Of a stretch of DNA of 64,000 nt, positions 39,701 to 45,700 are shown in pieces (the stretch's first letter is position 1; each line of letters starts with the position of its first letter). The notes under the pieces are model-generated. The model did no database searches. It had not been told where the DNA came from and worked only from the letters and a program-made list of their open reading frames with translations. Made by a program: the position numbers and the translations under genes. Origin of the DNA: Muricea muricata (Eukaryota; Cnidaria; Anthozoa; Malacalcyonacea; Plexauridae); contig OY979716.1 of the NCBI GenBank assembly GCA_963855995.1, positions 123,442,237 to 123,506,236 of the forward strand, written 5' to 3'.

Positions 39701-42700
39701 CCGCCCAAACCTCAACTGCAAAGGTGGAAAGAGAGACTGTAAGACTATTGAAGAGAAAATCCAATTGATGGGTAGTGAGTCCATCGTCCATCTTTTACTA
39801 CAATCGTCGACAAAAGTCATACGAACACACAATTAAAATTTAGCTGCGCTTATTTATACACAAGTTATACCTTATATTCGTAAAATTTGGTCAAAATACC
39901 CCCTTTCCCCCCATTCAATGTTGTCCCCTTTAATGGTGGCACAGTGAAATGAAATATTTAAGGCCCTCAACATTGTTTTGGGGGAAGAAGGGGGTGAAAA
40001 TGTCCCAATACTAGTTGACATTACGTAATTGTAGAGGCGTATACTGTGGCTGTCCGCATAGTTTTGTCGACGATTGTCTGGAATGTGCGCAATAAATTAT
40101 TTCTCAGAAATCTCAATTTTTACAAGCTCAGAGGTACGTAAAATTCGTTTTATTGAATTTGACTTGTTTTTCTTCAGTCATAACATACATTCCACATACA
40201 ATAATGTAAGTTATTAAGTCATGATCATGTGACGCAATGACATTGTAGTACGTCACGTTCTTAATTGGCATAAATTTAATTTTTTTGTTATTATGGTGAA
40301 AGCAACTTGTGCTGAAAAACGAGCTTTAGTGTGCTTTTACAAGATGCATACGAATTTAAGTTATCGTGAAATAGCCACTAACTGCGGAATCTCCAAATCA
40401 ACGGCACACGCAATCTGTGCAAAGAAGAGAAAAAAAGTAAAGATACCACGAAAAAAATGCGGCAGACCGCGTTCACTTAACGAAAGAGAAGAACGAAAAA
40501 TTATTCGAGTATTCAAGAAGTTGCGGAAAGAATACGTGAACTTTTCCGTAAAAGATTTGATGGCAGATTGTGGTTTAGATTCGAAACACGTACACGAAAG
40601 AACTGTTTCAAGATATCTGAACAGGCACGGATTCAGATTTAGGCAAGCGAGGAAGAAGGGTCTTTTAAATGCAAATGACGAACGCCTTAGATCCACATAT
40701 GCACGAAAAATGAAAGTTGTCCTAAGTAAAGAACCACAATTCTATACTGAACACCTGGCCTTCTATTTGGATCGAGTGTCGTTTATTCACAAGAATGATC
40801 CTCGAAAAGCTGCAATGCAACCGAAATCACGAGTTTGGCGCAAGACAGGGGAAGGACTTTCAATTACTGCTAAAGGCAACAAATCTCTCGCGGGTGGAAA
40901 ACGTCTCCACGTAATTGTTGCAGTTGCTTGGCGGCGAGGAGTTATTCTAATGGAAGACTATGAGAAAATGGATGGTACTTTTTTTGCCCAATTTATTAGA
41001 AATCATTTTAATTTATGTTTCGGGAAGGCTGGGCCTGAAGCATATGGAAGGAGATTATTTCTGATGGATAATGATCCTTCACAGACAAGTAAAAAATCAT
41101 TGTCAGCTTTATCCGATATTGAGTGCGAGCTTCACGAAATTCCGCCCCGTTCCCCAGATCTTAACCCGATTGAAAATGTTTTCCATCTCGTAAAAAAGAG
41201 TTTGGAAAGAGAAGCCATCAAGAAAAATATAATGAGGGAATCATTTGTTGAGTTCAGAGCTAGAGTTTTTCGTTGCTTCGAGTCATTAGATGTGGCCATG
41301 ATAGACCGAACAATAGAAAGCATGCCAAAACGAATTGAAAAAATTATAACTTCGAAAGGAAAACGGATAAAGTACTGAAAAATAATTTGGCAGTACGTAA
41401 TTATATGATGAAAAATACGCTATGTAAACTAATGGACTATTGCAAACGGAACTATGGTATTGTAACTTCCAATACGAACAAACTGTATAAATGATATAGA
41501 TAAAGCTGATACAAACTACATCTACATTATCTGATGTAAGATATAATGTTCAAATAATAACATCTCTTCGCATATATTGTCTCATGTGTCTTAACGTCTG
41601 TATGTACTATATAGTAATTATGTTTGGTATTAATGACGCTTCATATGTCACTATATGGTTACTATGGAACTGTGAATCATTGCCTGCTCAACGGTAAACA
41701 CAGGGGGAAATTGCTTCCTACAAATACTGTGCGCACAAACGTTATTATATCATGTAGTGATATTAGAGTAAATACTTTCACCTTTATTTTGAGCAGTTTA
41801 CGCTGAATAATTTTCGTTAGAAAAACAGATAGAACGGTAAACATGCTTTGTGATAATAAATTGTAATATGATTAGTCAGAACATTATTATTCATGAAACG
41901 AAATTTGCATGTTTACCGTTCGTATTTCTAATGTACTCCATTTGAACTATTCCTGTTATGCTAGCGCTCTTATTCACATTAAGTGAGCACAATGACGTAA
42001 AATATGGTTTGTATAAGTGCATCAATGACGGGTAACACGATAAAACGTAAGCACATAATACTTGTTTCGAAGTGTTTACCGTAGAAGGCGTAATTAAATT
42101 TATGAACCTTATTTATTATTAACCCAATACTAACTCGGCAAAACATTTTGAACAAGGCGCGAGGCGCCGTTGTTCATCTTCGGGAATCTGATAGTTAAAA
42201 TGTAAAACTTTCCACCTGACAGCCATCATCTCCGTCTCACGATCGTCGACAACACCATTTTTGATAAAAATTAAAGGGCGCTTACTTGTGCAAAAAATCG
42301 GAGTGTCTTTAGCAAACTGGATGTCTTGGGTATAATGCGTCTTGGGGGCAGGTAAATGGACCAGTTCGCCTTCCAGCATCAATAGCAAATCATGCCATGG
42401 TATCAGCTGTGCACTCCATCTGAAATCGTTAAGAAATATGCACCGGCATTTTCAATTCCGACCCACGCAAAAGTTCCCGACGCAGGGTTGCAAAACGTCG
42501 CGTACACTTGTGTTAGCGGTTTCAGAATAAACGTTTTACCACAATTGGCGGGACCGACTATCATCAAATTACGGTGCTTACCACGACCCTTAGTTAACGA
42601 TTCCTTAACCAAATTTGCAAATTCGTTTATGTCGATGCCATTCTTCGCTAAAACTTCTCTCGCACACTTAAGCCACAGTCCGTTACACCCAGCCGGGCAA

Positions 42701-45700
42701 ATAGAGTTGAAGGCCTCAGTTAGTATTTCTATACGAGTTTTCTGCGTTCTGGCTAACTTTTCTGTGGCACATTTCATCTTCAAAGTCGTGTCAAGTAAGT
42801 CTGCAAGGGCTTTTGGTGTCCTGTTAAGAATGATCTCCACAAGATCGGTCTTTCCATTTTCTCTTTGCTCTTGCGCTAAGGCGTGAAGTTCTGTGATGTT
42901 CTGTATTTTCTTTTTCAAGATAACATCTGAAACTTGCAATGCTGTTAGACGCTTTTTCATGCCGCTTTTGGATTGTTTCTTTCTTTTATTACTATCTTTG
43001 TTGGTTGCTTTTCTCTTACACCCGATGTTGCGCTTACTAACACTTGCTTTATTTGTTCTTGGCCCGTATCCATTGCGAAGATCAGGATGACCTTCACTCT
43101 CTTCATAGTCCGTGTCACTTTTTGTTACATACTGCCAGGCGCTGAAATAATTATGATGAACATTAGAATAATGGACAGTAATATCATATGTTTCGGAAAG
43201 ATACCTTTTCGATCCCAGCCATCGCTGTACTTTGTTCAGTTTCAATGCCATATGATAATGCTTTCCGCCCGAAGTGTGATCCTCCAAACTACAGCACCAC
43301 TGGATAACTTTACAACTACCTTGTGTAAAGCCTTCCACTACTGCTTTAGCGAAATCTGTTCGATTAGGCATCTTGTCCATATCAGCTTGACTGTATGTCA
43401 CAAGATAAACACTTCTCGTTGCTGACCGGTTTATGTCTTTGTCGCCCATACGCTGTTCAATACTCGTAACGTTTTCAATACTGTCCATATATTCTTCTAT
43501 ATTATTTTCAAGCTCATGTTGTCCTGTACAAGAGGCCATAGCATTCAGGGACCCCACACAAGTTCACGCTCCAGACAGTTTCTCTTTGTTTACGCACCGC
43601 ATATCCGGTTAGTAAAGCGAATTATTAGCTCGCAAATATTTTCTTTCATGAAATGTTGCATTATAAGCATCATCTGAGTTGTTTCTATTTACTAATATGA
43701 ACGAAAATGGGCGTATTATTTACTTTTTATGGGGGAAAAAAGTCACTTTTTAAGATGCCACATTTTCAGACAATCGTCGACAAAAGTCATACGGACACAC
43801 AATTAAAATTTAGCTGCGCTTATTTATACACAAGTTATACCTTATATTCGTAAAATTTGGTCAAAATACCCCCTTTCCCCCCATTCAATGTTGTCCCCTT
43901 TAATGGTGGCACAGTGAAATGAAATATTTAAGGCCCTCAACATTGTTTTGGGGGAAGAGGGGGGTGAAAATGTCCCAATACTAGTTGACATTACGTAATT
44001 GTAGAGGCGTATACTGTGGCTGTCCGCATAGTTTTGTCGACGATTGTAGCTTTATTAATAATCTCTTCAAAATTTCTATCCCATTTTCCTGGTATACGTA
44101 TTTCTGCCATAACACCTAATAATGTGAGCTATTCTTTCCGATTGAAGGTATATAGGTTCTGGATGGGCAGCAGACACTTTTCCACGAACTATCATTTCGT
44201 ATGTTTTCTCCATGTTTAGAAGCATTCTACTCCTCTTAAACTATATTTTCACATTTTCCACTTCATTACCATTAAATGTTTACAGTCATAAACTGGCGCT
44301 ATTATTGCAATATCATCAGCATATAAAAAATTGACCGTTTTCAATATAATTATACACTATAATCAGCAATTTTGCTTTGGTACACACATTTCTCAAAGAG
44401 CCGCATAATGATATCTGTTAGTGAGATAGGTCTGTACGTGAGAGCAGGAGCTAATTGCATTTTATTTTGGGCTAGGTATCACGTCTGCTCTCTTCCATTC
44501 ATTCCGGATCTTTCCATTCTTTAGAGAAGAGCTAAATATTCCCATCATGACAAGAGCCAATGTCTCTGCGTATGTCTTCCAAAACCAATACGGTATGTCA
44601 TCTCGTGCGGATGTTGGCCGTTTCAGGCTTCGCGGTATTACTAGGGCTGGAACTTTAATTGCGATAATAATAACATTTATAATAATATTTTAATTAACGT
44701 GATCGCTACACTTAGCTAAATAAACTAATTTCCAGGTAGGATACAAACTAATCTAAAGGTATTTACATGTAGATGAAATTTACAATAAAATTATAGTATC
44801 GTAAAATATTTACACCATAAGAGATTACCAAATCAATTTTTAGTGTTTTTTAAAAATTTATTAAAATGTGTAGCTGTTTTTAAATTAATTGGCAATGCGT
44901 TTCATAGTTTTTCAGCAATGTATCTCCAAGATTTTAGACTATAAATTACTGAGTTCACCTTAGGCATACTCAAAATGTCTTCTCCTCTAAGTTTGTATTT
45001 CGAGTTTCTTAGCTGCAGACTGCAGTAAGTCCTTTATTCAGTTTGGTACAGTATTAGTATGTACTGATTTATAAGCGGTACAAATAATTTTATGGGGTTT
45101 TTGATTTAACAATGTTATTTGGCCCATCTTCTTTAGTAATACGTCATAAAATGAATGTTTATCCGGACAAAACGTAAGGCCCGCTAGTTGACTTTCTTTA
45201 ATTTTTCTGTTGATCCCTTGCCACAAAAGTGCCATGCAACTGCACAATATTTAAACTGCGGACAAATAAATGCCTGATAAAGATATTTTCTTGTTTCAAA
45301 TGGGAGCAGTTTCCTCAAACGTTTGAACACTGCAACTTGTTAAGTTGAGATATTTTTGGCAAATTTTAGCAATATGTTTCTCGAATTTCAACGGGATGAT
45401 CGTTCCTTCGCAGAGAAACTGGGCTTTGTACTCAGAAACTGAAGTTTTTACTCGATTATCATGATTTATTTTGTCATAAAACAATATTACGAACAGTAAT
45501 TATGCATTATTATAATAATGAATAGTCCTTGAATAGTTTCTTCGGAAATTCGTTTACACAAAAGAGAAAGATTATCACTATTTCAACTTTAAGTTTCAAT
45601 ATATACGTATATTTTAATTAATATTAGCACAGGTCGGACAGCAGGGGCCGGTTGTATAAAAAAGTGATTAAAGTTAACTATGATTAGCGGAAACGTCAGC

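Follow-up and report, generated by a model that had tools for sequence, protein, structure and literature searches.

A 64,000-nucleotide stretch of the anthozoan Muricea muricata genome (GenBank assembly GCA_963855995.1, contig OY979716.1, positions 123,442,237 to 123,506,236 of the forward strand), hereafter the window, contains an element in which a Tc1-type transposase and a replication initiator (Rep) of the HUH endonuclease and putative superfamily 3 (SF3) helicase type lie together between two direct, palindromic repeat units, named P. The locus raises the question of what a replication initiator would do in a transposon of the cut-and-paste kind. We regard it as probable that two enzymes make this element a replicating transposon, with Rep copying a circle that carries one P and the transposase inserting P-bounded segments at TA dinucleotides. 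By a narrow preference, we would also place it in a separate class of animal mobile elements, in which a DDE cut-and-paste transposase is coupled to its own rolling-circle replicon. The parts of the element, with positions and strands in the window, are the following.

39799-39800: TA target dinucleotide, left (read from the sequence).
39801-40076, +: P, left copy, a 276-bp imperfect palindrome with the terminal inverted repeat CAATCGTCGACAAAA (repeat comparison, folding).
39916-39923, +: left arm of the inner P core, CAATGTTG, with a C tract before it (in 7 of 7 families examined).
39968-39975, +: right arm of the inner P core, CAACATTG, with a G tract after it (in 7 of 7 families examined).
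40077-40083, +: body end TCTGGAA adjoining the left P (TCTG start in families A to E).
40293-41378, +: intact Tc1-type DD34E transposase, 361 residues (DDE_3, E 2.8e-14; Sleeping Beauty, E 2.9e-8).
41379-42118: convergent gap with four ACGGTAAA(C) copies as candidate iterons (shuffle test).
41691 (+), 41834 (+), 41912 (-) and 42075 (-): the candidate-iteron copies ACGGTAAA(C) within the convergent gap.
41832-41921: candidate replication origin, a hairpin whose two arms each contain the repeat (folding against shuffles).
42119-42379, -: C-terminal piece of Rep in a different frame (matches the Rep C-terminus of other copies).
42403-43539, -: Rep, HUH endonuclease and start of the SF3 helicase, 378 residues, after which the frame is lost.
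43764-43770, +: body end TTTCAGA adjoining the right P (read from the sequence).
43771-44046, +: P, right copy, direct repeat of the left P (274 of 276 positions identical).
44047-44048: TA target dinucleotide, right (read from the sequence).

The two P units stand in direct orientation and differ at 2 of 276 positions, and the left one, the unit that was folded, forms as DNA a structure of -45.8 kcal/mol (z -5.2), as good as which none was found among 200 shuffles. TA is present outside both ends, and on the inner side P meets not TA but TCTGGAA (left copy) and TTTCAGA (right copy). Between the units, the transposase (+) and Rep (-) are arranged tail to tail, and no reverse transcriptase open reading frame (ORF) was found there, either among the ORFs of the window or in the units of L041 to L043. 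The transposase shows exact DD34E spacing and matches HTH_Tnp_Tc3_2 in addition to DDE_3. An earlier, sequence-only reading of this DNA had described the TA flanks, the non-TA inner junctions, two direct and imperfectly palindromic 276-bp terminal repeats and an intact DD34E transposase, all of which hold, the palindrome by the fold of the left unit. As for Rep, the motifs it had named are present (HYH, YVTK for YxxK, and the Walker A sequence GPANCGKT), but the gene is not intact in the window copy, where the reading frame breaks off after Walker A and before Walker B, leaving the C-terminal part as an ORF of its own.

Copies were searched for in one assembly of 453 Mb and 74 contigs, and the recurrence of the same arrangement across it confirms that the layout is real and not a product of chance. 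Both genes recur in unchanged order in seven lineages (35-69% protein identity), designated families A (the window), B (L025), C (L026), D (L028), E (L041), F (L042) and I (L044); families C, E, F and I have both ORFs open over their full length. Near copies that include parts of the genes are 93-97% identical to the window, and P-only matches 80-98% (best 40 of 191 candidates). The search with a single part of Rep gave 505 candidates, the best 150 of which were scored, and that with the window transposase gave 1377, with the best 113 scored; all those scored matched. Among the matches listed, a convergent Rep occurs within 2.5 kb at 37 of 52 transposase loci and a Rep in the other orientation at none, while at least 37 of 89 Rep loci have a transposase beside them. 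The other 15 transposase loci include the window, C1:47.8M, C58, C1:114M and C2:38.26M, and these five carry Rep or remnants of it. The recurring convergent pairing thus supports the proposal that transposase and Rep are parts of one mobile element, and the outcome named beforehand as contradicting it, that the two genes would occur only separately, was not encountered in this genome.

The P unit is likewise recognisable in each family. It begins with CAATC (CAACC in C) and ends with GATTG, with inverted ends specific to the family, and contains CAATGTTG and CAACATTG with their C and G tracts in all seven; this inner core is among the parts best conserved between families. A TA stands before the left P in families A, B, D, E, F and I, and family C shows one at C34:4635. 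The right P was read in A, C, E and F, and not in B, D and I; in family I, a 235-residue ORF (L044:4502-5209) lies just outside Rep, and no right P was identified in the sequence read. Next to P on the body side, the sequence starts with TCTG in families A to E (five of seven), and it is different in F and I. In family A, TA was found on both ends at 11 of 14 sites examined, and on both sides of five of eight solo P copies. P looks like a cassette cut by the transposase. The combination of CAATGTTG, a gap and CAACATTG was considered as a mark specific to P and rejected, with 1653 occurrences in the genome against 19 for the reversed control, many of those listed being other repeats. Places with the two motifs 28 to 58 nucleotides apart (CAATGTTG-N28-58-CAACATTG), for instance in C1:47228-53101, are in many cases unlike P, and some are spaced 1937 bp apart.

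Empty sites bear directly on the manner of insertion. The joined flanks of a solo P lying in a retroelement gag match eight unbroken places across a single TA, and in a query of four such joined sites (53 rows, best 40 of 131 candidates), that of the two-P copy on C58 has 17 unbroken matches of 75-96% identity. Because unbroken matches to the joined flanks exist, P-body-P is judged to have entered C58 as one piece. Integration of the whole element at TA, as anticipated in the sequence-only reading, is therefore upheld by the empty sites of C58 and of the solo P, and independent insertion of the two 276-bp units, the outcome that would have spoken against it, is not what C58 shows. For the window copy, C1:47.8M and C1:114M, the other sites in that query, no empty site was found among the matches listed, no other match spanning the join beyond a few bases. 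It is scarcely credible, in the light of this evidence, that two unrelated P insertions, behaving as miniature inverted-repeat transposable elements, bracketed foreign DNA by chance, or that the layout is an assembly artefact. Solo P copies with TA on both sides do exist and arrays are hard to assemble, but seven lineages share the layout, single units inserted on large contigs display it where no array is present, a sequence other than TA borders P on its inner side, with the TCTG start in five of seven families, paired P units have private alleles in common, and the empty sites for a whole two-P copy already contradict such an origin.

The sizes of the insertions were best resolved in family C, where exact searches located TA followed by the left P end at 16 places and the right P end followed by TA at 16 places (reversed controls 0). 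Fourteen of the 16 left and 14 of the 16 right ends pair, two of each remaining unpaired, and the paired insertions have the form P-(body-P)n, with lengths near n*4023+254. From TA to TA, P alone (n=0) measures 252-268 bases at four places and single units (n=1) 4182-4520 at six, and the multimers measure 8242 (two units), 20394 (five), 68133 (17) and 88251 (22), so that four of the 10 body-containing paired insertions are multimers. The 5-, 17- and 22-mers fit to the base when their own unit length and missing stretches are counted, and the two-unit insertion is 14 bases off the expected length. A 6-mer of family E, at C2:49858179-49881917, likewise has exactly the expected length. Among the Rep matches listed, at least seven arrays contain two units or more, and at the junctions read, the units are linked head-to-tail by one P with body ends on either side.

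The array on C34 (L037) comprises 30 units by Rep and transposase matches. Compared with one reference unit, it shows 16 single-base differences, of which nine are found in two or more units and seven in one, six of these seven stemming from two 3-base insertions or deletions. The differences fall in blocks, the first 12 units having three variants throughout and 10 of them a fourth as well. At C34:92889, the array inverts where a P end with its TA abuts the inside of an inverted copy. This joint, in a place where the assembly is uncertain, resembles a product of autointegration, a process described for Sleeping Beauty (PMC3952818).

Head-to-tail arrays fit extrachromosomal replication. The main rival is recombination between P units: the transposase alone would move the element, and arrays and solo P would result from later unequal crossing-over between direct P copies, as do solo long terminal repeats (LTRs), with gene conversion keeping the two P alike and Rep having another or a weaker role. 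We hold this to be unlikely, although it deserves to be taken seriously. P is a direct repeat in every unit, so that n = 0 and n > 1 are its expected products, and it explains the sizes equally well; the C34 blocks with common variants can arise by crossing-over, and several copies that keep P and the transposase have a Rep that is disrupted or has been deleted. Less easily accommodated are the little-differing arrays of 5, 6, 17 and 22 units, in two families, which would need rapid growth, the share of multimers in family C, and a constraint on Rep like that on the transposase, in a gene frequently open over 440-500 codons in other copies. Solo P, moreover, can come from movement of P alone, which the footprints described below favour.

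Among the matches listed, five of 60 same-strand unit spacings in seven arrays are short by about one P. At these five P-less junctions, CAG is left at three, CA at one, and a larger deletion is found at one; the excision footprint of Sleeping Beauty is CAG or CTG (PMC3952818). The two-base form of the footprint was found at one place in family C by exact search. With regard to the relationship between paired units, 20 P units of family A (indel columns left out) contain 14 substitutions present in exactly two units, of which six are common to the paired units of a single copy (C1:114M has three, C58 two and C1:47.8M one), a pairing with p ~8e-7 if pairs formed at random and the relatedness of copies is left out. 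The own partner is the nearest or equal nearest P in three of five two-P copies. Such shared private alleles point to a common template for both ends; they fit a single-P stage, or else strong gene conversion, and resemble those of the paired LTRs of a retroelement.

Both proteins show signs of long-term maintenance. DDE_3 scores above the cut-off in all five full-length transposases scanned against Pfam, and the best relative of solved structure for the window transposase is Sleeping Beauty (E 2.9e-8). Thirty-four residues separate the second D and the E in the window, B, C and E, that is, in four of six transposases, and the DD34E motif patterns of the script found no match in those of F and I. 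In Rep, the HUH residues T33, H79, H81, Y122 and K125 are invariant in the five proteins compared, the three HUH motifs being defined after PMC6668415. Beyond the HUH domain, Walker A and further conserved motifs of the putative SF3 part follow. The Pfam matches of Rep are weak and concern REP_ORF2-G2P, Parvo_NS1 and PPV_E1_C, with no Helitron-type helicase among those of the five Reps, and searches of PDB sequences gave weak P-loop and E1 matches only. No third ORF of more than 200 residues accompanies the two genes in the units of L041 to L043, nor is a capsid gene present there. In ten between-family comparisons covering both genes, the proportion of synonymous differences (pS) is 0.77-0.89, which is saturated, against 0.18-0.42 for nonsynonymous ones (pN). 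Since synonymous differences are saturated while nonsynonymous ones remain at these values, both proteins are taken to be kept by selection over the long term.

As to where copying would begin, the best origin-like feature appears to be the mid-element gap, not P. Between the two stop codons lie short inverted and direct repeats that differ by family, namely CGGTAAACA in A and B, CGAGTAACC in C, ACGGTGTAC in D, GTGGAGTA in E, AACGGGTCA in F and ACACGTTAC in I. In the window, four copies of an 8-mer were reached by three of 200 shuffles and four of a 9-mer by one of 200, and in families A, B, C and I between 0 and 3 of 200 shuffles equal the gap repeats. The hairpin of the window gap (folded stretch 41810-41945) has -23.5 kcal/mol and z -6.2, with 0 of 200 shuffles as good, and for A, B, C, E and I the gap hairpins have z values between -4.5 and -13.8. 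Repeat hairpins are strong in A, B, C and I; in E, the hairpin is strong but the repeats are weak. Taken together, these repeats and hairpin resemble iterons beside a stem-loop and constitute a candidate origin.

The sequence-only reading had placed replication at the hairpin ends. Parvovirus-like rolling-hairpin replication through the palindromic P ends, followed by integration by the transposase, has in its favour that P folds well as a single strand (z -5.2), that the inner P core is among the parts best conserved between families, and that NS1 and E1 are weakly matched by the SF3 part of Rep. Copying by rolling hairpins generates units joined head-to-head and tail-to-tail, whereas the arrays here are head-to-tail with one P per junction, and the single inversion seen (C34:92889) joins a P end to TA inside another copy, as in autointegration. 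The P ends, furthermore, look like transposase sites, and the repeat hairpin sits in the gap rather than in P. This route is therefore improbable, and replication through the ends is the part of the earlier reading that is not favoured.

Under the two-enzyme reading, Rep, as HUH nuclease and SF3 helicase, would start rolling-circle copying of a circle with one body and one P, probably at the repeat-and-hairpin origin in the convergent gap, and yield head-to-tail concatemers. The outward-facing ends of P would be recognised by the Tc1-type transposase, which could cut out any stretch starting and ending with P, treat it as a transposon and insert it at TA, whether it consists of a bare P, of a single unit like that in the window or of a long array. 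We propose that bare P, like-ended single units and arrays all stand at TA because the transposase accepts any P-to-P stretch. Copy number would thereby be raised outside the chromosome and then fixed by cut-and-paste. We infer the circle, the activity of Rep, the position of the origin, and the arrival of arrays as concatemers as opposed to their growth in place.

A number of results weigh against this account. TA-bounded insertions with n = 0, 2 or more are also what unequal crossing-over among directly repeated P units would produce, and the single units of family C range from 95 bases short to 243 too long. Long near-identical arrays may be misassembled, above all that on C34, the right end of which adjoins another copy and not host DNA. 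In two of the five two-P copies, C1:47.8M and C2:38.26M, the own partner is not the nearest P. The gap repeats are borderline in D and F (9-mers 6 and 12 of 200 shuffles, 8-mers 48 and 95 of 200) and not significant in E (8-mer 34 of 200, 9-mers 184 of 200), while the hairpin of F (z -3.0) is not formed by the repeats and that of D (z -1.5) is not significant. No nick motif shared between families was recognised in the gap by eye, no dedicated search having been made. Every Pfam match of Rep lies below the curated cut-offs, and the AlphaFold model of the window Rep ORF alone has a mean confidence (pLDDT) of 43 and a fold that is unusable. Finally, agreement between the Rep tree and the transposase tree is partial (Mantel r 0.35; 365 of 5040 permutations did as well), and the strict co-divergence that had been expected was not borne out by this comparison. 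The trees are concordant for A and B and discordant for D, whose Rep groups with A and B and whose transposase, a fragment, groups with F and I; this discordance suggests an exchange of modules.

Compared with known systems, the element shares with the Sleeping Beauty branch of Tc1/mariner the DD34E triad, the Tc3-type helix-turn-helix, the duplicated TA target, inverted ends and the CAG footprint. It differs in its Rep gene, direct palindromic end units, head-to-tail arrays and a P that apparently moves alone; with a convergent Rep present, the transposase is not the only gene. Helitrons likewise are eukaryotic transposons with HUH-based replication, but have a different helicase and no TA duplication, while here a separate DDE transposase and a duplicated TA are found. 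The order of the HUH and putative SF3 domains, together with the weak Pfam matches, recalls the Reps of CRESS-DNA viruses and plasmids, parvovirus NS1 and papillomavirus E1. Unlike CRESS-DNA viruses, the element has no capsid gene in the L041 to L043 units, and no relative was found in viral contigs, where patterns from two Rep alignments gave 42 and 43 stretches, none of which encodes one. Unlike parvoviruses, it forms head-to-tail arrays, not head-to-head concatemers, and is known here from genomic copies alone.

A geminivirus-like transposon of Tuber melanosporum also combines Rep-like and transposase ORFs in one repeated element, but is described as having 37-bp inverted repeats, no obvious target duplication and interrupted or truncated ORFs (PMC3198968). 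The same source places the Hydra repeat DENSOV_HM near papillomaviruses, and because Rep has below-cut-off SF3 matches to E1 and NS1, this repeat may be a relative. The nearest known analogue is Teratorn. For Teratorn-like herpesviruses, it has been proposed that, from a concatemer, one unit with a transposon copy on either side becomes able to integrate (PMC10175614); a cut-and-paste transposase is there joined to a replicon, with the same concatemer logic as proposed here. As described there, it unites piggyBac with a whole herpesvirus genome (~180 kb), in contrast to the Tc1 transposase, 4-kb Rep replicon and genomic arrays of the present element, which we would rate as a transposon-replicon composite at the far end of that range. 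The suggestion that this layout belongs to no described family agrees with a literature search by title and start of abstract (Repbase, preprints and most subscription papers being outside its scope), in which none of the papers listed describes an HUH-SF3 Rep combined with a Tc1 transposase between direct repeats bordered by TA.

Two open questions, by what means cut-and-paste transposons multiply and by what route small Rep replicons reach animal chromosomes, would thus meet in one compact element, whose many open-frame, recent-looking copies make the link between replicon and transposase directly testable. Stepwise insertions may be a source of large tandem arrays without slow growth in place, and the concatemer-plus-transposon route proposed for Teratorn would gain a small, tractable counterpart.

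In other respects, reading by eye indicated that BEL/Pao-type retroelement ORFs adjoin some copies of the element. Elsewhere in the window, a TCTG microsatellite of ~319 copies with 99% matches occupies 5274-6550, and an AT microsatellite of 99 copies 58244-58442. Also by eye, long ORFs at 2590-4818 and 6782-7807 are reverse-transcriptase-like, the latter ending in a GIY-YIG-like stretch as well, and two long ORFs within 47503-50438 resemble a P-element/THAP-type transposase.

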